NCBI GenBank assembly: GCA_010093605.1
Contig: MU004183.1
Location: forward strand, 1,240,001 to 1,304,000
Reading direction: 5' to 3'
Length of the DNA stretch: 64,000 bases
DNA from: Lophium mytilinum
Lineage: Eukaryota > Ascomycota > Dothideomycetes > Mytilinidiales > Mytilinidiaceae
The position numbers and the translations under genes were made by a program. The first letter of the stretch is position 1. Every line of letters starts with the position of its first letter. Below are positions 3,374 to 25,856 of this stretch, piece by piece. A model generated the notes under the pieces. The model saw only the letters and a program-made list of their open reading frames with translations, ran no database searches and was not told where the DNA came from.

Positions 3374-5084
3374 GGTGAGGATAGAGGGTGGGAGGTGTGC
3401 GAGGTGTAGGCTGAGGTAGTGAGCGAGGTGGAGGTGGTGCAGGAGATATGTAGTGACGGGCGAGGAGAAAGGGCAGCAGGCAACGTCAGACTGATATGGG
3501 AATAAGGTTCGGTTGTGAAAAGCTAGTGGCTGGCGCCTGGATAAAGATACAGTCGCCCAAAGCTCAGGCGTGTGTCAGCCTTTAGAAAGCGAGTGTGTTT
3601 CCGACGTGTTTCTGGAGTCAAGGGCTGCGTTACTGCTGAAGCGCGGGTGACTCAGACGGGCGTGCTTTTACAGCTCGTCCAGATTTAGACTGCTCGAAGG
3701 AGGCTCGCGGCCAACAATAGCACTGAAAGCGCTCTTTGTGCTGTTTACTAATACAAAACTAGTTTTTCTAGACACAAAGGGGGTGTTACGCTCATAACAC
3801 ACGAATTATCTAGCCTCTTTTGTTGCAACATCGTAGCCGTTACATTAACCTCATCCCATAAGCCTGGAGTCAGGGATTGTGGCGTTGTGGCTAATGCCCA
3901 AATATATCGTGCCCACCTTGTGCCTGGATACATGGTACTGGTACAGCTGGTAAGTAGGTAACGGGGCGACGTCCCAAAGCGCCTGGCCCCTGGCTGTCCC
4001 TCTCTTTGCTGCCATGTTGGAGTTTTATGCGGTCACGTGGCTACATTCTCACGTTTAGTCACGTGAACGGTGTACGACGACAGCTCCACCTTCGAAGGAA
4101 AACTGTAACACAACCTCTGCCAAAAGAGTGAGAGCGCCTGAAACCCTATGATCATTTACAGTCCACAGGAAACTCACCATACATACGCTGCGACGAGGAA
4201 GCCAGACTCGCAGACGTGGTCCGTGACACCGCCACGCTGCGGCTGGACTCCAGGGCTGCACCTATCCGGACGCCAGGGCAAAGAGTACGAAAGGACACCC
4301 AGTTCCACTCCAAAGTACACACTCTTGTCCTGTGTGCACAGTACAGTTGCCCAGCTCTAGCTGAGGTCTTTGGTACATCATCGAATACTGTAAGCGGCGG
4401 CTCTGGCACACCTGATAGCTCTCCAAGCCACCGCAGGGGATGTTGAGGTCAAGTATACATCTTCATTGAGTTTCCTACCACCGCGTCTCTTCCCTATCCT
4501 TTCTCGTCACGCGTCTCTGCCATGCTGCTGGATCCCGTGCAGACGTCACACGACTTGGCAGCGCTGTGTTGAGCTGGCAACCACAGCCCTGTCGAGAGTG
4601 GCATTCTCCATCTGCATGGAAGATGTTCGAATCCTGTCTTTCTTTCAGTTGCTGCGAATCAGAGTACCGTGCTCGCGCGGCCTTGCTGCCTTGCAAACAC
4701 CAGCGTCCAGTCATGGCCGTCGAATATGCATTGACGAATCAAGCCGTCTGCCAGCACAGCCCTAGATTAACGCACGGGCAGGCTGCAGGGTTGCTTCCAA
4801 AACCTTGGCAGGGCGGTCGATCTATTTAAGAGGCAGCCTCCCCCACCTCATGCGCGGTACGCCTCTCCACGACAAGTCAGAGCCAGAGCCGCCGAACCCA
4901 GCGCCTGGAATCTCGCTTCTCTCAAGTGTAGATTTCTCGCAAAGTCTCTCAGTGCCTTCTTTTCCTAGGAAAGGAACGCCTCCTGAGTTTCTTCCGGAGC
5001 TCATGCAAAACGCGTCAACAAATTAACCTTTACACTCTTTCCACAGCCCTCCGTCGCTCGTTACGATCCCTCTCTTCGTCCACC
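3374..5084. other. Long intergenic region with degenerate repeat-like DNA
   Basis: About 1.7 kb without a supportable gene. Around 3660-3700 there is a short motif (ATTTAGACTGCT) also found in the repeat relics near 15.96-16.12 kb and, in variant form, near 57.2 kb, so part of this stretch may be old mobile-element DNA. A TATA-like TCTATTTAAG lies at 4821-4830, about 260 bp before the BTB gene. Short frames on both strands between 4055 and 5026 look like chance. Confidence 0.4.
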
Positions 5085-5954
5085 ATGTTCAAACGCTCTT
5101 TTGCTCAAAAGGATCGAGCGGGCAAGATAACCAAACAAGCGAAGAGGTCGTTTCGCGATAATGCCAAACAGAAGATGATGTTTGAGAAGCTGGACAGTCC
5201 GCAGCTGGAGAGGTATGACTATTATGCCAGCCTTGGAGAACTTCTCGCTGATAGACTCTTCAGTGTCTCCCCCAACCTCACCAGCGCCATAGTCACCATC
5301 GTGATTGGCCCGGACCAGCGACTGTTCGCCGCTCACGAAGACGTACTGAGTCACTCGCCGTTCTTTGCAACGGCGCTGCGGGACCAGTTCTTTGAGAGCA
5401 ATTCTCGACGCATCACTGTTCCCGACGAAGAAGCCGAAGTATTCTCCTGTGTCCTCGAGTATCTCTACAAGGGGGATTACTATCCCCGCCTCATGCACGA
5501 CAAGAAGCGCAACACATGGATGCTCGAGGGTGCGGCCGATGAAGATCCCCACTCTAAACTAGGTGGTCGCGGGAGCGTGGAGCCGACAATCTTCCACTCC
5601 GGCCTGGGCGACGTTATCCTCCGTGACACGGCCGTGTACTGCGCGGCGGACCGCTACGGCCTCGAAGAGCTTAAACGGCTCTCCCTGCGCAAGCAAGGCC
5701 TGCAGAGCGGGATCGAGGTCGGCACCATCCTCCGCAGTGCCCGGTACGCCTACGAGAACACGCCGGACACCGACTCCCGCCTCCGCGCTCATTACCTTGC
5801 TCTAATTATCCGCAGCCGGCGGACGTTCAAGCGCAGCGGCACGATGCAGATGGAAATGGAGATGGGCGGCAAATTGTTCTTTGACCTATTCGTGGCTATG
5901 TGCAACCACATTGATGATATTGTGGATGTGACGCAAGTGCCCCATCTCTCTTAG
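5085..5954 (+). CDS. BTB/POZ-domain protein
   Basis: A single-exon frame of 289 residues. A basic N-terminus (residues 1-30) precedes a BTB/POZ core at about 65-135: a beta strand with VTIVIGPDQRLFAAHEDVL, then SPFFATALRDQFFES, then the hydrophobic VFSCVLEYLYKGDY. BTB domains dimerise and often serve as substrate adaptors for Cul3 ligases. Many filamentous fungi carry large families of small BTB proteins with no other domain, and this one fits. The rest (140-289) is helical with no recognised domain, though the stretch after a conserved ADRYGLEELKRL resembles the usual helical continuation. Substrate and role unknown. Confidence 0.88.
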   Translation: MFKRSFAQKDRAGKITKQAKRSFRDNAKQKMMFEKLDSPQLERYDYYASLGELLADRLFSVSPNLTSAIVTIVIGPDQRLFAAHEDVLSHSPFFATALRDQFFESNSRRITVPDEEAEVFSCVLEYLYKGDYYPRLMHDKKRNTWMLEGAADEDPHSKLGGRGSVEPTIFHSGLGDVILRDTAVYCAADRYGLEELKRLSLRKQGLQSGIEVGTILRSARYAYENTPDTDSRLRAHYLALIIRSRRTFKRSGTMQMEMEMGGKLFFDLFVAMCNHIDDIVDVTQVPHLS

Positions 5955-7077: not shown

Positions 7078-9375
7078 TCAAGACGATGGAGCAAAGCTCT
7101 CCTCAAACCGCCTCGCAATCTCCAGCACCGAAGCATCCATACGAGAACCACCCAAAAACGTCACACTGAAAGGGAGCACACCCGCCTCCTTCGTCCCCGC
7201 CAGCTCGGCCAAGGGATATGTGCCCGCAGGCACAGCGACGCCGCAAAGATCAAGCACGTTCCCGCAATGCGTAAATTCGCCTAGTATGCTATTCTTCCTG
7301 ATAGGATCCGCGAGCACTTCGTCGATCCGCCAATGATTCGGCGCGGTCGGTACTACAAGCACGTCGGTTCCCGCAGCGCTCTGCGCGAAAACCTTCTCCG
7401 CCTGCCTCGTATACAGCGCTTTAGCTTGTAAGTCTCGGTAGGCGTCCACAGCGGAGCTGTTCCGGGCGACGACTTTGTCCATCAGCTCGACGATGACGGG
7501 GTGCAAGAGCGCGCGGTTCTTCGCGAACCAGCCATCTGGGAGCGAAGCGAGGCGCTCGCTGACAAAGGTGCCGTCGTAGAGGAGCTCCCCGCCTCTCTGG
7601 AAGGGCGTCCAGTTGATAGGGGTAAGTGTGCCGCCGAGCGACTGGAGCCGCTTCACCGTCTCGTTGAACAGGCGGCGGTGGACGTGGGAGCATATGTCTA
7701 GAGCTTCAGCTGGCGGTATGCTGAATTTGAACGACTTAGCTTGTGGGCCGATGGAGTCGACGTGGCGCTCGTAGGCAATTTCGGGCTTGGCGTAGGCATC
7801 TTCTTCGTCGTGGCCTTCGGTCAGCTGCCAGATTGTTCGTGCGTCGCTGACGTTCTTGGCGGTGATGGCTATGCAGTCGAGGGAGATACACGCGGGTGTG
7901 ACGCCGCGGAAAGATATTAGTCCGCGCGTTGGCTTGTATCCGACGACGCCATTGAAGCCTGCAGGCACGCGACCGGATCCAGCGGTGTCAGTTGCGAGGG
8001 AGAAGGAGACTAGATTGGCGCCGACGCTGACAGCATTGCCGCTGCTGGAGCCGCCACTAATGTAGTCTTTGTTGAATACGGAATGTGTGATGCCGTAGGG
8101 ACTGCGGCAGCCGGTGAGGCCGGTGGCCAACTGATCCAAATTGGTTTTGCCAATGAAGAGAGCTCCCTCTGATATTACTTTGTTGTATACGACAGCGGAA
8201 GCAGAAGGTATATGCGCTAGAGGTGGACACGCTGTGGTGGTGGGCAATCCTGCTACATCGATACTGTCTTTCACGCTGAAGGGGACACCGAATAATGGAG
8301 GTAGTGCTGATCGATCTGAGTATTTTGCTGCAAGAGCTTTTGCTGCCTCCATAACGTTTTCTTTGGATTCGAGATGTATCCATACGGCTGGATCTACTTT
8401 CTGGTACGCTTCGATCTTGTTGTAAAGCGTTTCAGCCAGGGTGACTGGTGATAGGCCTTTCTTGTACGCTTTCTGGAGGCTCGTGATTGCAAGATCACCA
8501 TCGAAGTCCGGTGGCGTCTGTGGAGGGGTAGACGCAGACGAGCCTCTAGCATCGCCGAAAGGCTCCAAGGCATCCAAAAGGGGTTGCAAGCTTGCGATGA
8601 AACCAAATAGGCCTTGGGACCAGTGGATCATGTCAAGCGTTGCACACTTGAAGTTAGTGTCGTTGTACCCACTAGTTGCTTCTTCAATGCCGCCTTAGTC
8701 TTGTCAGCAGGTAAGCTATGTGCTCGTACATGCAATAGACTTACAGCACTCGAAGCCTCGATCGTTAGCCTCTCGTATGGAGGTAGCGAAACAACACTCT
8801 GTAGTCACTCCGGACACAATCAGATGGGTGATCGCTCGAGCTTTAAGCTTGTGAAGAATGGTAGTATTCCAGAACGTCCCTTTCCCAGGCTTGTCGATGA
8901 CGACCTCGCCCGGTAATGGTCTCAATTCGTCGATTATGTCGTGTCCATACTCTCCGCGAACGAGCAGACGGCCCAACTCGCCGCGCTCGCCGATTGTGAG
9001 CTTGTGTTGGGTATTGTCTGGTGCAGCGGCTTGTCGGACGAGCTTTGATATAGTCAGTTGGCCATCGTTCAAAACAGAGAGCAGGATGCGTACTTTGGAG
9101 GAAGGGCAGTCTGATAGATCAGGAACGTGCCCTTCACGAGTATGGACAACGGTCAATCCAGCCCCCCTGGAAGCTTCGAGGAGCTTTCTTGTGGGGGCAA
9201 TGGAGGCCTGCACATCTGCTAGATTCCCTCCTTGAATTTCTCCAAACCCTTTTGCTAAGAGGAAGTCTCGCTGCATATCAATTACGAGGAGAGCTGTATG
9301 CTTCAGTGGGAAAGAGAACGCGTACGGTTTCGCGTCAATTGACACCACCGGTGAAGCATCTTTCTTTATCGTCAT
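7078..9375 (-). CDS. Bifunctional isochorismatase-type hydrolase / allophanate-hydrolase-type amidase (putative biuret-degrading fusion)
   Basis: Three exons (9375-9094, 9042-8745, 8693-7078) give 731 residues. Both introns are 51 nt with CTGAC branch sites; the first is in frame, so an unspliced reading would wrongly keep 17 residues. Residues 1 to about 232 are an isochorismatase-like cysteine hydrolase with triad Asp33 (VIDMQ), Lys145 (DKPGKG) and Cys178 (TTECC), most like biuret hydrolase and N-carbamoyl amidases. Residues about 260-731 form an amidase-signature domain with Lys335, Ser409 (GGSSSG) and Ser433 (DTAGSG). It follows allophanate hydrolase closely, including Tyr566 and Arg574 spaced eight apart as in described substrate-binding residues. 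The usual C-terminal extra domain of allophanate hydrolase is absent. Intron 2 (8744-8694) restores the isochorismatase C-terminus (ECCGIEEATSGYN...), which reads on into the amidase, so this is one gene. Inferred reaction: biuret to allophanate, then to ammonia and CO2. Confidence 0.85.
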
Positions 9376-10135: not shown

Positions 10136-12332
10136 ATGTCTATCCTCTCTCCCAGCCGCCTCAAGGCGAAAGTTGGTCCTCACCTGCACCTGAGAGTGCC
10201 CTTTGAAAGTGGAAAATATGCCTCGAGGTGGTCCAATAGGGGTAAGTAATCTTTACAATGTTCGAGCATCGAGTTGTGTGCACCTGTCTGGCATTGCTTG
10301 AAGTTTCTTGATTCACTGGGAGGACTCAGAGTTCAGGTCTGCTTTGAGACATTGATGAACTCGCTGAGCCGCCTCAAGCAGTGACTGCAAGGTGTACACA
10401 GTCCGGTGACAAGTTCCAACCATCAACGGAGTGCGAAACTAATAGGCTTTATAGATCTCGACCCAATTCCTCCTGAGAAGCGGACCTGGGGGGCCATCGA
10501 CTACTGGGCATATTGGACGTCAGACATGTTGGCACCGCCCCTTGCCTCTACCGTTTCTTCGGTCATGTCGCTTGGCTTTACAGCCCGGGAGACGATTCCC
10601 ATTGTCTTCTTCGGTTTCCTGATCTGCAGTGTTGTCATCACTCTCACTGGCAAAATGGGTGCTACTTATGCTGTCCCATTCCCTGTCATTGTGCGAAGCG
10701 TTTTCGGGATGTATGGGTCATTCCCAGCCATCTGCATTCGAGGTATGACACAAAACTAGAACTTCGTGTTGCATTTGCTAATGCATACCTAGCTTTTGTG
10801 GCTTTGATGTGGACTGCAATCCTGACCGTACAGGCCGGTGCTTATTTGCAGCTCTGCCTAGAGGCCATATGGCCAAGCTTCATCCACTTTCCCAATCACC
10901 TCGCCGCTAATGCTGGAGTCACCTGTAAGCGCACCTATATACCAGCTGCTACGATACTATTTACTAATGTCAACAAAGCTGCTGGGCTCCTATGTATCTT
11001 CTTGTACTGGTTTGCGCAGACCGCCCTCGCAATCATGCCCATTGAGAAATTGAGGGTCCTGTTTTGGGTTAAGGGCGTCATTGTAAGTTCCTAGAATGCG
11101 AGGGTCCCTCCAAGCCCACTGACAAATTATAGGTCCCTCCGACGTTCCTTGCGCTTTTCCTCTGGGCGGTTATTGTGACAAAAGGTGGAGGGGAGTTAGT
11201 CACCGGGAAGATGCATATTACATCGACATATATGAACACGGCCTACTCTGCGCTTACCGGGTTGAACGTCATCATCGGACTCTTCAGCTCTATGGCTGTG
11301 AATATGCCCGATTTCGGCAGGTTCTCTAAGAACAGACTGTCTGGGTACAACCAATACTTTGCTCTGCCTATTATCGGTATGGTTGCCGCTCGGGGATATT
11401 CGCTCTACACAACTAAATTCGCTCAGGAACTCTTGGTGCTCTCACTCCCATTTTTGTCACCTCAGCAAACTCGCATCTCTGGGGAACCTTCGAATGGTAC
11501 ATGCCTGCCATCATTGCAAACTTCGACTCTCGTGCCGCGAAGTTCTTCGTGTCGTTCAGCTTCATGCTTGCAACTATCGGTAACCAGGTTGCTGCAGGTA
11601 AGGAATACCGCAATATGCTCCGAGAATTTGAACTGACAATCATAGGCACATATCCTTTCTCGAACGATATCACTGGTATGGCCCCAAAATACATCAATAT
11701 CTTCCGTGCGACCATGTTCATCTCCATCTTCTGTATTGTCTCGACGCCATGGAACATTGTCAAGAATGCGGCAGGTCTGCTAGCATTCCTCTCTGGATAC
11801 TCATGCTTGATGGGACCTCGTACGTATCACCCAACTAGTTTCATCTTTCGATACTGATCGGTCATCCTAGTTGCTGGCACTATGGTTTGCGACTACTACA
11901 TCATCAAGAAGCGGAAGCTCGACATCGACCAGCTGTACACCGGTGAGTCTGGTCAGTTTTATCTCAAAATGAACGGAGCTAACGATGAAAGACCGCGGAA
12001 TCTACTGGTATTCGCACGGATTCAACTGGCGCGCGTTTGTCGCCTTCGTGGTTGGCTTTGCGCCTCTACTTCCCGGATTCGCCAAGAGCATTAAGCCAAC
12101 CCTCAACGTCGGAGGAGCATGGAAGATCTACACTTTTGCTTGGACTTTTGGATTCTTCATTTCGATGCTAGTCCACTATGTCATCTGTACATATGTCTCG
12201 GTTCCTAAGGAGTCTATTATCGAAGAGGCGGTCTACCCGCCACAGCTTGGCGATGTCTCCCCGCCGTCCGAGTTCATGGACTCTGGTAAGGAGGACTATG
12301 TCACGGGGGAGAAGGAAGTCAGCCCCGTTTAG
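10136..12332 (+). CDS. NCS1 (Fur-type) nucleobase/ureide:cation symporter
   Basis: Nine exons (10136-10241, 10455-10742, 10793-10924, 10979-11082, 11133-11376, 11427-11597, 11646-11819, 11871-11942, 11992-12332) give 543 residues. NCS1 permeases carry uracil, allantoin, purines and related compounds across the plasma membrane with a cation. The start was placed at 10136 because the first exon, spliced over a 213-nt intron, builds the family N-terminus (KYASRWSNR then DLDPIPPEKRTWG). The body shows about twelve hydrophobic segments, the VPFPVIVRS stretch after TM2, NHLAAN, and MPDFGRF in the middle, all typical of the fungal Fur group. The C-terminal tail is polar and acidic, as in permeases controlled by endocytosis. 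Its neighbours suggest it imports the substrate of the fused hydrolase, but sequence alone does not reveal the substrate. Confidence 0.92.
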
Positions 12333-13375
12333 CGTGCAGGCGCAAACAGTTGTTTTGATGATCACGAACTTAAGTATTTATGATGATCTAAGTTGGAGTT
12401 TTGCTTTAGCGTCTAGTAATAGGGATCGAATCGATAGGGATCAATAGCAGTAAGCTCTTTCACTCTGGTGCATCTTAGGCTAGTAGCCACTCGAATTTGG
12501 CGATTGGCTTCATGGCGTCTGCTGGAAAAGGTCAAGAGCCTTGGCAGCTGGCGTCTGGCGTCTGGATGCGGGTGTGGCTTTGGAAGTCGCTAGTGTCCCG
12601 TGCCTTATCTCGAGAGCCCTCCACGCACGCTGGCTTTGCCAGAGGCCCGGTCGCCGTCGCCGAAGTGCTCAGAGCCTACGTTATCACCCTCAACCATCAT
12701 CGCAGCCCTATGCAGGCCCAGCGCCCGGGTTCTGGGGAACTCGTTAAGAGCACACGACACGCCCAGCCCTGTATATATCTGTATCTTGGAGTTTCACCAG
12801 GGGGCTACCTGGAAAGCAACACGAGAAGATCTACCAACCGGCATCATTCATCATATCATTACCAATCTGACTCCCTTTTCGCCGAAGGTTCCAGCTGATG
12901 AAGCGCTTGTCCTATTCAAGTTTAAAGGTCCCCGGAGTTTTCTGTCATTGGTGAGTACTACAAGGGTGCAACACTGAGCACGCTTATTTACATCCTGTCC
13001 TGCCGTTGATTATGAGTTTTCATGCCTCAGCATGAGCCTATGTAGAGCTAGCTGCCGCTGTGAAAAATTGGACATCGAGTTTACTAGCAGCTCGAGATGA
13101 TGGGCTTCCTTTTCGTTTGTTCTTTTGAAAAAGCGTTGAAGCATCTATGACAATGGCGAGTAGGTGTATCGGTACAGAACGTCAATTGCTTTCGTCAACT
13201 GGGTCTAGCCTACTCCATTATAACCGGCGTCGCGCTGTATCTCAGCTAGCACCCGCTCTCTTCTTTTCCACATCTCCTTCATCTATTCAACCTATCGAGC
13301 CGACTCTGAACCCCATAAAGGAGTGATGGACTTCGCTAATGATGCTCGTAGCTCCTCAGCATTCGGTATCGCGCA
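12333..13375. other. Intergenic region before the regulator gene
   Basis: About 1 kb with no believable gene. Plus-strand frames of 68-133 codons at 12497-12977 overlap one another in different frames and are not family-like. This stretch should hold the permease terminator and the promoter of the Zn2Cys6 gene. A CGATAG lies near 12429. Confidence 0.4.
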
Positions 13376-15724
13376 ATGAGTTACCGGGTGGACCAAGGAA
13401 TCTCCCCTACCGAGTCCTATTCTGGCCAGGGCGACACATCGTCTTCTAAGAATCGATCTCGCCGTCCGTGCGATTCATGTCGGCGCCGTAAGTCAAGATG
13501 TGAGTTGGTTGATGGCGCAACTCCTTGCGTTCTTTGTCGATTTCATCGTCAAGAGTGTACCTTCAAGGAGGAGCCCCAACCTAGAAAAAGGAAAGCTGCT
13601 TCCTTGAGCGAGGAGGAAACCAACAATACAAACTCTTCACGAGACTCTCTTCGCCGTCCGCCCCCGGTCTCTTCCGATAAAGCTTGGATTCCGAGGCATT
13701 CTTTCCATGACATAGCCCATAGGTCCTCGCATCCTATTCGGCAAGATCCACCTATTGACGACTATGCCAACTTGAAGGGACCCTCGCTACTCAAGAAGAC
13801 GCTGGGTTTGCAAAACCATCGGCATAGCAGGTTTATTGGCTCGACGTCCGAGTACGAACAGACCCTTCTAGAACTCGACGCGTACAACGACAAGGACGAG
13901 GTCCCAGTAGGTGCGTCTGCTCTCCGAAAGGTCAATGCCACGGACGCCTTCATCTTGAGCCCCGATGAAGGTACGAGGAATCATGAGGAAGAAATCGTTG
14001 ATTTGGATGCTATCGAGATGATAGTTGCACCGCACGGCCAGGCTTTGATCCATCTGTACTTCCGGATTGTTCACCCCAGCTTCCCCATCTTGCACAAGAA
14101 GGTCTTCCTCGAAAAGTACCAACGGACGCACCGCGAATTCTCTCCGCCGCTTCTAGCAGCTGTATATATCCTAGCTTTAAACTGGTGGTCCTACAGCAGT
14201 GACTTGGCGCTTCTGCCAAAGCCTGACGTACCTAACCTTGAGAAGTTGGCGTTCAAGACTGTGAACGATATTATTCATCGTCCAAAACTCTCCACTATTC
14301 AAGCCGGTCTGCTTTTGCTCCAAAGACCGGAAGGCGACTCTTGGGCGCTCACTAGCCAGCTTGTCGGACTCGGACAAGATCTCGGTCTTCATCTCGATTG
14401 CTCTACGTGGAGGGTACCGGCTTGGGAGCGAGGGCTGCGAAAGAGGTTGGCGTGGGCTCTATTCATGCAAGATAAATGGGGCTCTCTAGTCCATGGAAGG
14501 CCTTCTCATATAGCTACGACTGACTGGGAAGTACAGCCTCTGTCGGAGATTGATTTTCCCGAGAGCGCTGCCGATGAGGATGACGAGGACGGCAGTACCG
14601 AAGTCGAGAAGGGCCGCACGCTGTTTTGCGAGATGATCACCCTGACAGAGATTCTCGCTGTTATTCTCTCTAATTTCTACACTTTGAAAGCAGAGCAAGA
14701 TATACGGATGCACGCCCAGGATGGCGTCCGCTGGATATTAGAGAAAGCAAAGCCAAGTCAACTAGCCCTCAAAACGTGGTTTGCACAAATGCCTGCTATA
14801 CTAAAGATGGAGAATGTCGCAATGAGGAAACTGTCGTCTACAGGTAAGCCAATCATCCTTCAGCATGCTTCCTTACCAGAACTGCATTTCAGACGCTGAC
14901 CCCTATATGTAGGCTATCTCCACCTAGGCTACTACGCCGTAGAGATTACCCTCCACAGACGAATTATCCGGGCCCTGTCCTCGTTAGACGATCCCTCACT
15001 GGTCTCCATCTGTCGACATGCCGCTCGTGCACGGCTTGTGTCTGCAATGGATTTTGTACAAGGACTTCGACCCGAACATCTGCAGTCATTCTGGTATTCC
15101 GCGTCAAAGTACTGCTTCGCGCTAATCGGCTCATTCGTATCTCTACTATGGGTAACGGTGCAAGAGAAAGAAGAAGCGGAGTTCTACAAAGCGAAGCTAG
15201 AGGAGTACAGATGGACGTTGCGGCTCTCGTCGAAGAGTGCGGATTTCCTGGAGAGAGCCATCAGCATGCTAGCAATATCGACAGGCGTCCTCGTCAAAGC
15301 AATTCCGGACAGATCGAACGCAGAGTTTGCCGCTGCGAGGATTAGGAATCCTGCCAAACCTCAGGCTATTTCAGCGAGAGCACACTCTTTTCTAGATTCT
15401 AGGTCGCATACCCACTCGGCACCTATTAATGAGTACTCTGAGTCCGAGTCGTATGAGGGACAAACAACAGAGCACACTCCTGACATGGGCGAAACGCCGG
15501 AGGATTCTGCCACGAATGAAGACTTCATCCCGGATCACCTGTGGTTTGCAAATGCAGCTCAGTTGAACGATATCAGTGCGGTGTATGGAGAGAGTAATGC
15601 GACCGGAATGGATCATGATTTCATGAATATGCCGGGGATCGGACATGTTGGAGATGGATACGACTTTCAGGCCTTGCGGGGGCACGAGGGGCCTCCGGGC
15701 TCGGGCGATGTGGAACAGGGTTGA
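13376..15724 (+). CDS. Zn2Cys6 transcription factor, Dal81/TamA-like
   Basis: Two exons (13376-14843, 14913-15724) give 759 residues. The binuclear zinc cluster uses Cys32, 35, 42, 51, 54 and 61 (spacing 2-6-8-2-6) and is followed by a basic PRKRK. The PCDSCRRRKSRC and CVLCRFHRQECTF wording, plus the middle-homology region (LVGLGQDLGLHLDC, WERGLRKRLAWALFMQDKWG, HGRPSHI), resembles the TamA/Dal81/Uga35 group. Those proteins co-activate nitrogen-source genes such as GABA, urea and allantoin utilisation. An acidic Asp/Glu run lies near residues 400-415. The gene sits 1 kb downstream of the permease on the same strand, so local or pathway-specific control of the cluster is a reasonable guess. It could also be a genome-wide nitrogen co-activator that merely lies here. 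Confidence 0.9.
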
Positions 15725-24884: not shown

Positions 24885-25856
24885 TCAATCGACCGCATAC
24901 CCTTCCGTGTCCTCGTCGGACTCTTCATCCTCATCTTCCTCGTCTGACTCTCCATCCTCATCTGACTCATCATCCTCGTCTGACTCTTCGGACTCTTCAT
25001 CCTCATCCCCCTCGTCCTGTGAATCGTTCTCCATGAAAGCACGAACAATCTCCCTCCCTTCTTCGCGATCTTCCTCTTTATAGATGCTCAACGCATACAT
25101 CCTGAGGAACTTGAATTCGTTGCCGAAGTGAGTCTTGAGCCAGGCTTTCTCGGCGGCGTTGTATCCGGGGCTAGTCTGGGTGTTCTGGGGAGTGTTGTTC
25201 GTTGGCGGTAATGCAATAGCAAGGCCAGCTGTGTGGATGGTGCGACTCTGGTTTCGCTTGTACGCCTCCCATCGCACGAGCTCTGACTGCTCCCAGCAGA
25301 CGTTCAAGCAATAAGCGGTATTTCTTGGCTCGTCGAAGATGCTTGGTCCAACAACAGGGCCAACTGGCGGTCCGCTCAGCTTGACCTGAAAGAGTGGTTT
25401 GCTCGGGTCTAGGTCGAAGTACGCTAGGGTTTGCCCTTGGGTGTCCTTGATAGTGCCGCGAGCCGTTTCGTCCCAACTGGTAGTGATACGGAGTTTTTGG
25501 TCATCCTCTTTGGTTAGGCCGATGATGTTGCATACGGCAGACGGGATGTAGAGTACGTCGTGGAGAACGAGCTGTCCATGGGCATCGGGGCCGCTGTGGC
25601 CAGGGGCTTTCTCAGTGGGGAGGGATACGGTGCCAACGCCGAGGACTGGCATGCGAGACTGGAAGTAGATGGAGCCGGCGAACGATTTGAAGGGGCTGTA
25701 GTCAGTGAACCAGCCGCGATTCTTGCAGGCACTGAATAACGGAAGTTAGTAAGGTCTCTCCATTGCCGCTAGTTCGTTCCAGACGTACTGAACGTTGGAG
25801 CCACTGGAGAATACCCAGTCCGGGCACAGAGGCTCGGACGAGAAACTCGGTGGCAT
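24885..25856 (-). CDS. Domesticated copia-type protease-fold protein with acidic tail
   Basis: Two exons (25856-25789, 25731-24885; 57-nt intron) give 304 residues. The N-terminal ~100 residues follow the beta-barrel/protease segment of Ty1/copia Pol: PDWVFSSGSNVH at 12-23, then YSPFKSFAG, LGVGTVSLP, and the flap-like LHDVLYIPSAVCNIIG. The catalytic Asp-Ser-Gly of copia proteases is replaced by Ser17-Ser-Gly, so cleavage activity is unlikely. No integrase, reverse transcriptase or LTR lies nearby, and the frame is intact with a proper intron, so it looks like a host-adopted gene. A middle segment (AWLKTHFGNEFKFLRMYALSIYKEEDREEGREI) precedes an extreme Asp/Glu/Ser tail of about 55 residues. 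The start is uncertain; an in-frame ATG lies upstream at 25970. Function unknown. Confidence 0.7.

Follow-up and report, generated by a model that had tools for sequence, protein, structure and literature searches.

We analyzed a 64,000-nucleotide stretch of the genome of the ascomycete Lophium mytilinum (assembly GCA_010093605.1, contig MU004183.1, positions 1,240,001 to 1,304,000 of the forward strand; hereafter, the window), which harbors a minus-strand gene (9375-7078) in which an isochorismatase-like hydrolase (IHL) domain is joined with an amidase domain of the allophanate-hydrolase (AH) type. This gene is composed of three exons (9375-9094, 9042-8745, and 8693-7078) that encode 731 codons plus a stop (Table 1). 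Pfam analysis of the 731-residue protein identified an Isochorismatase domain at residues 27-209 (115.2 bits; cut-off 27) and an Amidase domain at residues 287-717 (243 bits; cut-off 27), and no further domain at an E-value of 0.001. An earlier annotation of this DNA (the original prediction) had described a single-gene fusion of these two domain types and had named eight residues within them (D33, K145, C178, K335, S409, S433, Y566, and R574). Our analysis confirmed the fusion, and all eight residues lie where they had been placed.

Gene model and AH domain of the fusion

Exon 3 corresponds to a single 538-codon open frame (8694-7078) that begins within the IHL domain, at residue 194/195. As this frame alone holds the C-terminus of the IHL domain, the linker and the complete amidase domain, the fusion is independent of any splice. 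Both introns carry a CTGAC branch-like box, which ends 9-10 nt ahead of their 3' end. Splicing of intron 2, across which the original prediction had carried the reading frame, is required because this intron contains in-frame stops (on read-through, the open frame stops at 8716) and because the alignment with the triuret hydrolase TrtA is ungapped over the junction (FECC/GIEEA in the fusion, with the slash at the junction, vs. YECLVIEDA in TrtA). Intron 1 is less certain, since it is in frame and stop-free and its retention would add merely 17 residues; it is likely spliced out, and its splicing could be optional. In the AlphaFold model, pLDDT is below 50 over model residues 43-62, which correspond to the linker (fusion residues 236-255).

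Our analysis supports the assignment of the C-terminal half as a predicted AH-type amidase. This region contains the amidase-signature triad (K335, S409, and S433) and a Tyr/Arg pair (Y566/R574) within LLYDGTFVSERL, and all five columns are invariant in alignments of 23 and 21 rows. The highest scores were those of AH models (PRK08186, 455.1; TIGR02713, 426), as compared with gatA (189.8), PRK06102 (163.9), and AtzE (148); together with the Tyr/Arg pair, these scores uphold the allophanate-hydrolase-like identity proposed earlier, with TIGR02713, a full-length equivalog, missing its cut-off (426 of the 511 bits needed). The best structural matches of the domain are AtzF (4CP8) and the AH of Granulibacter (4GYR). 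The AH_C domain (PF21986) was not found in the protein, while both control AH proteins score it, and was not found in the genome search, in which 2 of 14 control genomes gave a match.

Table 1. Features of the fusion gene and of its neighbors (positions in the window)
Feature	Position	Strand	Description
Exon 1	9094..9375	-	Residues 1-94; IHL domain, N-terminal portion, with catalytic Asp33 (9279-9277)
Intron 1	9043..9093	-	51 nt, GT...AG, CTGAC box; in frame, no stop
Exon 2	8745..9042	-	Residues 95-194, codon 194 split; Lys145 (8892-8890), Lys148, Glu176, nucleophile Cys178 (8793-8791)
Intron 2	8694..8744	-	51 nt, GT...AG, CTGAC box; in-frame stops
Exon 3	7078..8693	-	End of the IHL domain (42 residues), linker, entire AH amidase domain, stop
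Ser219-Gln220	8614..8619	-	Ser219 aligned with substrate-binding Gln202 of TrtA (Gln215 of BiuH)
Inter-domain linker	8509..8565	-	Residues 237-255, Ser/Pro/Thr-rich, low model confidence
AH-type amidase domain	7090..8499	-	Residues 259-728; without AH_C domain
AH residues		-	Lys335 8271-8269, Ser409 8049-8047, Ser433 7977-7975, Tyr566 7578-7576, Arg574 7554-7552
NCS1 nucleobase/allantoin-type permease exons	10385..12332	+	Divergent neighbor; PF02133 and TIGR00800 in 4/4 open frames scanned
Zn(II)2Cys6 transcription factor	13352..14899	+	Zn_clus and Fungal_trans; next gene found beyond the permease

Relatives and specificity residues of the IHL domain

In a sequence search against solved structures, the IHL domain matched TrtA best (6XIX, 205.7 bits), followed by the biuret hydrolases RhdBiuH (173.1 bits) and BiuH (168.8 bits) and, far behind, by RutB (82 bits); its identity by alignment is 49% to TrtA and 43% to BiuH. 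The BiuH equivalog NF050097 (NCBIfam) scored 215.3 bits, below its cut-off of 370. These scores, along with the failure of the BiuH signature (see below), speak against the label of biuret-hydrolase-like given in the original prediction. Identity as the ureidoacrylate hydrolase RutB was also rejected, based on a TIGR03614 score of 89.4 against a cut-off of 377.95 bits and on the lower score of the RutB structure relative to TrtA.

We compared the domain with a prokaryotic set that includes the loci of the best 80 of at least 573 confirmed relatives plus two plasmid loci (82 loci). The corresponding IHL alignment has 125 rows (122 prokaryotic rows and three PDB chains); matches of less than 540 nt were removed beforehand. 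The residue at TrtA position 160 splits these rows into Glu (76), Asp (42, BiuH-type), and His (7) classes, and the fungal domain belongs to the Glu class (Glu176). The His class comprises rows from L107, L043, L044, L054, L068, L070, and L086, five of the seven being from Bacillota.

The catalytic and core ureide-binding residues (D33, F38, E81, K145, K148, T174, and C178) are unchanged in the fungal domain. These include the Asp-Lys-Cys triad (D33, K145, and C178) and the counterpart of BiuH Lys145 (K148), residues described for BiuH (PMC5806882), and the Thr of the cis-peptide is also retained. Phe35, Glu160, and Tyr187 of TrtA are matched by Phe44, Glu176, and Tyr203, which are not BiuH-like. 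The BiuH signature (Tyr47, Tyr53, Asp173, Thr, Gln215, and Val218), carried by 42/42 BiuH-type rows, is replaced in the fusion by Phe44, Gly50, Glu176, Tyr203, Ser219, and Leu222. Two positions linked to specificity in TrtA, Asn41 and Gln202 (PMC7948467), are also changed. The first is Asn in 83/83 non-BiuH rows and Tyr in 42/42 BiuH-type rows, and the fusion has Gly50 followed by Asn51; the second is Gln in 125/125 rows, and the fusion has Ser219 followed by Gln220. MAFFT and profile (HMM) alignments give the same register for Gly50 and Ser219, and it is possible that a one-residue bulge or register shift places Gln220 (and Asn51) at the specificity positions.

Outside the 125 rows, an IHL adjoining AtzF in the Rhizobium locus L110 (6676-7362) has, by eye, a Phe at the Gln202 position, which indicates that this position is not kept in all relatives. 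Next in order in this plasmid locus (6676-7960) come a shorter IHL relative lacking, by eye, the catalytic Cys, and then AtzF; the Phe-bearing IHL and its Cys-less relative possibly form a heterodimer.

Profiles built in-house scored the fungal domain at 281.7 (76 TrtA-type rows), 258.6 (7 His-type rows), and 212.4 (42 BiuH-type rows), and in our trees this domain branches apart from the BiuH clade and falls to the TrtA side of a branch with 98/88, although a clade with BiuH is not rejected (see below). Judged by its sequence, the fungal IHL domain appears closer to TrtA than to BiuH, yet departs from both.

Genome context and proposed function

The source genome (43.2 Mb, 24 contigs), whose Zn2Cys6 and Fungal_trans domains and short GT...AG introns mark it as fungal, was searched in six frames, exon by exon. 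This search found no second AH-like amidase (428.7 bits for the fusion and 133.8 for the next match) and no second close homolog of BiuH or TrtA (next match, 39.2 bits). PF02682, the urea-carboxylase domain, was not found in the genome and matched 6 of 14 control genomes, while the urea carboxylase model TIGR02712 gave 17 genome matches which, because model positions 447-1056 are uncovered, correspond to biotin-carboxylase and biotin-attachment parts. With no urea carboxylase in the polypeptide or in the genome by either model, a urea amidolyase-type function was rejected, and a route independent of urea amidolyase, as the original prediction had suggested, is possible given that neither a urea-carboxylase domain nor a further AH-like amidase was detected in the genome. 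A guanidine/guanylurea route is unlikely as well, since the guanidine route requires a carboxylase of the urea-carboxylase family and PF02682 was not found in the genome. Cyanuric acid hydrolase (PF09663) had no genome match, but the control genomes gave none either, so its absence is not shown. As no urea amidolyase, carboxylase route or second close BiuH/TrtA homolog was found, the fused IHL domain is the sole candidate source of allophanate found in this genome. A urease is present.

The divergent neighbor of the fusion gene encodes a permease whose TIGR00800 matches fall short of the full-length cut-off of this model, and the Zn(II)2Cys6 factor encoded beyond it is a possible regulator of the fusion gene. 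A permease and a Zn2Cys6 regulator are usual content of fungal catabolic clusters, and both may be functionally linked to the fusion. Another fungal neighbor gene encodes eIF3c. In addition, a BTB/POZ-domain open frame is located 3' of the fusion gene (4932-5954, plus strand), and a Pol_BBD retroelement domain is encoded elsewhere in the window by another open frame (24885-25745, minus strand).

We propose that this gene probably encodes a bifunctional enzyme that scavenges nitrogen, converting a biuret-type ureide to ammonia within one protein. Both domains lie in one frame and have full catalytic sets. In the IHL domain, Cys178, acting with Asp33 and Lys145, would deaminate a biuret-type ureide (most likely biuret, perhaps triuret too): Cys178 would attack a terminal amide, ammonia would depart, and hydrolysis of the resulting thioester would release allophanate, a mechanism proposed for both BiuH (PMC5806882) and TrtA (PMC7948467). 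Biuret is the simplest substrate that yields allophanate directly, while triuret would give carboxybiuret and then biuret, to be handled by the IHL domain again or by the AH domain. Left alone, allophanate decays to urea (PMC6219798), and the advantage of tethering would be that the AH domain deaminates allophanate ahead of this decay. By analogy with its family, the AH domain would use Ser433 as nucleophile, with cis-Ser409 and Lys335. The residual N-carboxycarbamate would break down to ammonia and CO2; because this compound falls apart on its own, the C-terminal domain would be dispensable.

Several points weigh against this proposal. Because the conserved Gln aligns with Ser219 and Asn41/Tyr53 with Gly50, neither TrtA nor BiuH specificity can be assumed. 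The fungal IHL branch is long (1.4-1.8 changes per column), and with this long branch the AU test leaves a clade of the fungal domain and BiuH standing (p-AU 0.07). Rescuing allophanate from its decay to urea is not essential, since the genome encodes a urease, and the absences described above come from searching a possibly incomplete assembly in six frames. Finally, GATA motifs are not enriched upstream of the gene (4 in the intergenic region vs. a mean of 2.6 per same-size window, with a 90th percentile of 5).

A more tentative possibility is a eukaryotic two-step ureide enzyme of undescribed specificity, in which the IHL domain, having shifted or lost both residues linked to the biuret-versus-triuret choice in bacteria, recognizes another ureide, or both triuret and biuret, and passes allophanate to the AH domain; this possibility overlaps partly with the main proposal. 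If this were true, the actinobacterial loci that combine a single TrtA-type IHL with a C-domain-less AH, and in whose genomes BiuH was not found (see below), would represent a distinct pathway of similar type. It is unlikely that the IHL domain takes a different ureide altogether, such as an N-carbamoyl compound formed in purine or pyrimidine catabolism, still giving allophanate or a similar carbamate. The changes at both specificity positions, the long branch and the adjoining NCS1 permease are in line with this idea, as is the ability of the IHL family to switch substrate, guanylurea hydrolases (GuuH) being IHLs (PMC9800807). However, the residues that hold the ureide (Asp33, Phe38, Glu81, Lys145, Lys148, and Thr174) are unaltered. 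To our knowledge, few metabolites other than biuret yield allophanate upon deamination.

We consider it rather improbable that the IHL domain functions as a genuine triuret hydrolase, producing biuret from triuret via carboxybiuret, with the AH domain performing a later step or hydrolyzing biuret. TrtA is the best solved match, the TrtA-type profile outscores the BiuH-type profile, and Phe44, Glu176, and Tyr203 agree with TrtA and disagree with BiuH; moreover, the AH domain could take biuret, because AtzF truncated at residue 467 was assayed with this compound (PMC3944691). On the other hand, Asn41 and Gln202 of TrtA are replaced by Gly50 and Ser219, and no second close biuret hydrolase homolog was found in the genome, while TrtA, BiuH, and AtzF occur together in the operons described (PMC7948467). 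An inactive IHL domain, serving as scaffold or regulator while the AH domain works alone, would agree with the substitution at the Gln position but is very unlikely, given that the Asp-Lys-Cys triad, Lys148, Glu81, and the cis-peptide Thr are all retained and that, without IHL activity, no allophanate source was found in the genome. An artefact of the gene model or assembly merging two genes is hardly credible, in view of the unbroken 538-codon frame that runs from the end of the IHL domain through the AH domain, of the branch box and GT...AG ends of the introns, and of the fungal neighbors (the Zn2Cys6 regulator and eIF3c).

If the proposed nitrogen-scavenging function is correct, it would account for the retention of an AH in a fungus with a urease but no detectable urea carboxylase, of which the 2011 survey of fungal stand-alone amidases gives no account in the sections concerned (PMC3073912). 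It would also provide a candidate eukaryotic path for the nitrogen of biuret and triuret, which are impurities of urea fertilizer; urate oxidation has been proposed as an origin of triuret (PMC7948467).

Bacterial counterparts and known systems

AH matches reaching 150 bits or more are present in 29 of the 82 prokaryotic loci, and in none of these 29 do the IHL and the AH share one reading frame. The two genes lie on the same strand with a gap of at most 225 bp in 10/82 loci, including seven actinobacterial pairs ordered AH>IHL (L028, L036, L047, L056, L083, L088, and L090) and three Burkholderiales pairs ordered IHL>AH (L059, L087, and L104), which is the order of the fungal fusion. A GntR/FCD regulator is encoded directly upstream of the AH>IHL pair in three of the four actinobacterial loci examined (L028, 5706-6386; L083, 5749-6432; L088, 5207-6505); in L090, the remaining locus, two upstream frames were scanned, of which one encodes an FAD-dependent hydroxylase and the other a protein without family match.

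The original prediction had regarded the loss of the C-terminal domain as unusual, a view that our results contradict. The AH ends within 23 residues of the amidase boundary in 11 of the 29 loci, continues for 122-205 residues in 17, and reaches the contig end in one; AH_C is absent from all six of the 11 short AHs that were checked with Pfam. In addition, AtzF truncated at residue 467 was reported to be as active as the whole protein, as measured with biuret (PMC3944691). Taken as a whole, the original prediction is partly supported.

A single IHL is present within the fetched DNA, in which flanks are limited, in 9/11 C-domain-less loci vs. 3/17 long-AH loci. BiuH was searched for in 13 chosen genomes, several of them draft assemblies, namely those of the 11 C-domain-less loci and, in addition, of L066 and L087; among the genomes of the 17 long-AH loci this search covered L087 alone, and no genome-level contrast is claimed. 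Eight of the 11 C-domain-less genomes have one IHL of this kind at an E-value of 1e-20, which is TrtA-type, with BiuH not found, and BiuH is present in the genomes of L047, L027, and L033 (3/11) and in those of L066 and L087. The published pathway consists of TrtA, BiuH, and AtzF, all three of which are held in the described operons (PMC7948467), and is accompanied in some cases by the decarboxylase TrtB (PMC12625717). This pathway does not account for the recurrent bacterial pair of a lone TrtA-type hydrolase and a C-domain-less AH, which fits the scheme only if the IHL makes allophanate itself or the AH accepts biuret, and the fungal fusion faces the same puzzle. Descent of the fungal AH from the actinobacterial C-domain-less AHs was rejected because it lies outside their clade (100/99), the deep part of the tree being poorly resolved; from this position, loss of the C-terminal domain looks independent in the fungus and in actinobacteria.

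In L107 (7986-15147) and L111 (6980-12538), carried by a replicon of Peptoclostridium and a plasmid of E. coli, TrtA-like cysteine hydrolases adjoin DUF2877, FdrA, DUF1116, and carbamate kinase genes, a set of the type named AllFGH-AllK (PMC12625717), and xanthine or cytosine permeases are also encoded. Perhaps ATP-yielding carbamoyl transfer from the ureide replaces AtzF hydrolysis in these loci. A scan of viral contigs with the fusion matched no pattern.

The fused IHL-AH architecture was not found among the matches listed in our literature searches of open-licence PMC papers. Its parts, fungal AH amidases and fungal TrtA homologs, are already known. The stand-alone amidases of Dothideomycetes (Strope et al., 2011; PMC3073912) are, like the fusion, AH-type and outside urea amidolyase, with Mycosphaerella graminicola listed in Table 2 of that study as having an AH-type amidase without urea carboxylase; they are termed stand-alone, and the word isochorismatase is absent from its text. 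As for trtA, its presence in some fungi is stated in the TrtA paper, citing Robinson 2018 and a thesis (PMC7948467).

The TrtA of Herbaspirillum sp. BH-1 (6XIX/6XJE), which hydrolyzes triuret and has about 10^4 lower activity on biuret, shares with the fusion the triad and the equivalents of Phe35, Glu160, and Tyr187, whereas the fusion has Leu222 in place of Ile205, a one-residue insertion ahead of the last helix, and an attached AH domain. BiuH of Rhizobium leguminosarum 3841 (6AZO) has the triad and the Lys145 equivalent in common with the fusion, which lacks the equivalents of Tyr47, Tyr53, Asp173, Gln215, and Val218. With AtzF of Pseudomonas sp. ADP (4CP8) and the Granulibacter AH (4GYR) the fusion shares Ser-cisSer-Lys, the LLYxGxxVxERL Tyr/Arg motif and the whole amidase domain, but it has an N-terminal IHL domain and lacks the C-terminal AH_C domain. 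The urea amidolyase DUR1,2 (Kluyveromyces lactis, 5I8I) likewise carries an AH amidase in a larger fungal fusion and gave a lower score (245.4 bits); its partner is a urea carboxylase instead of an IHL, and its AH has N and C domains (PMC5770610). Finally, the actinobacterial pairs of an AH and a TrtA-type IHL consist of the same two parts, with the AH stopping at the amidase end in 7/7 and BiuH not found in 6/7 genomes, but they differ from the fusion in being two genes, AH then IHL, with an IHL that has Gln202 and AHs that form a separate clade.
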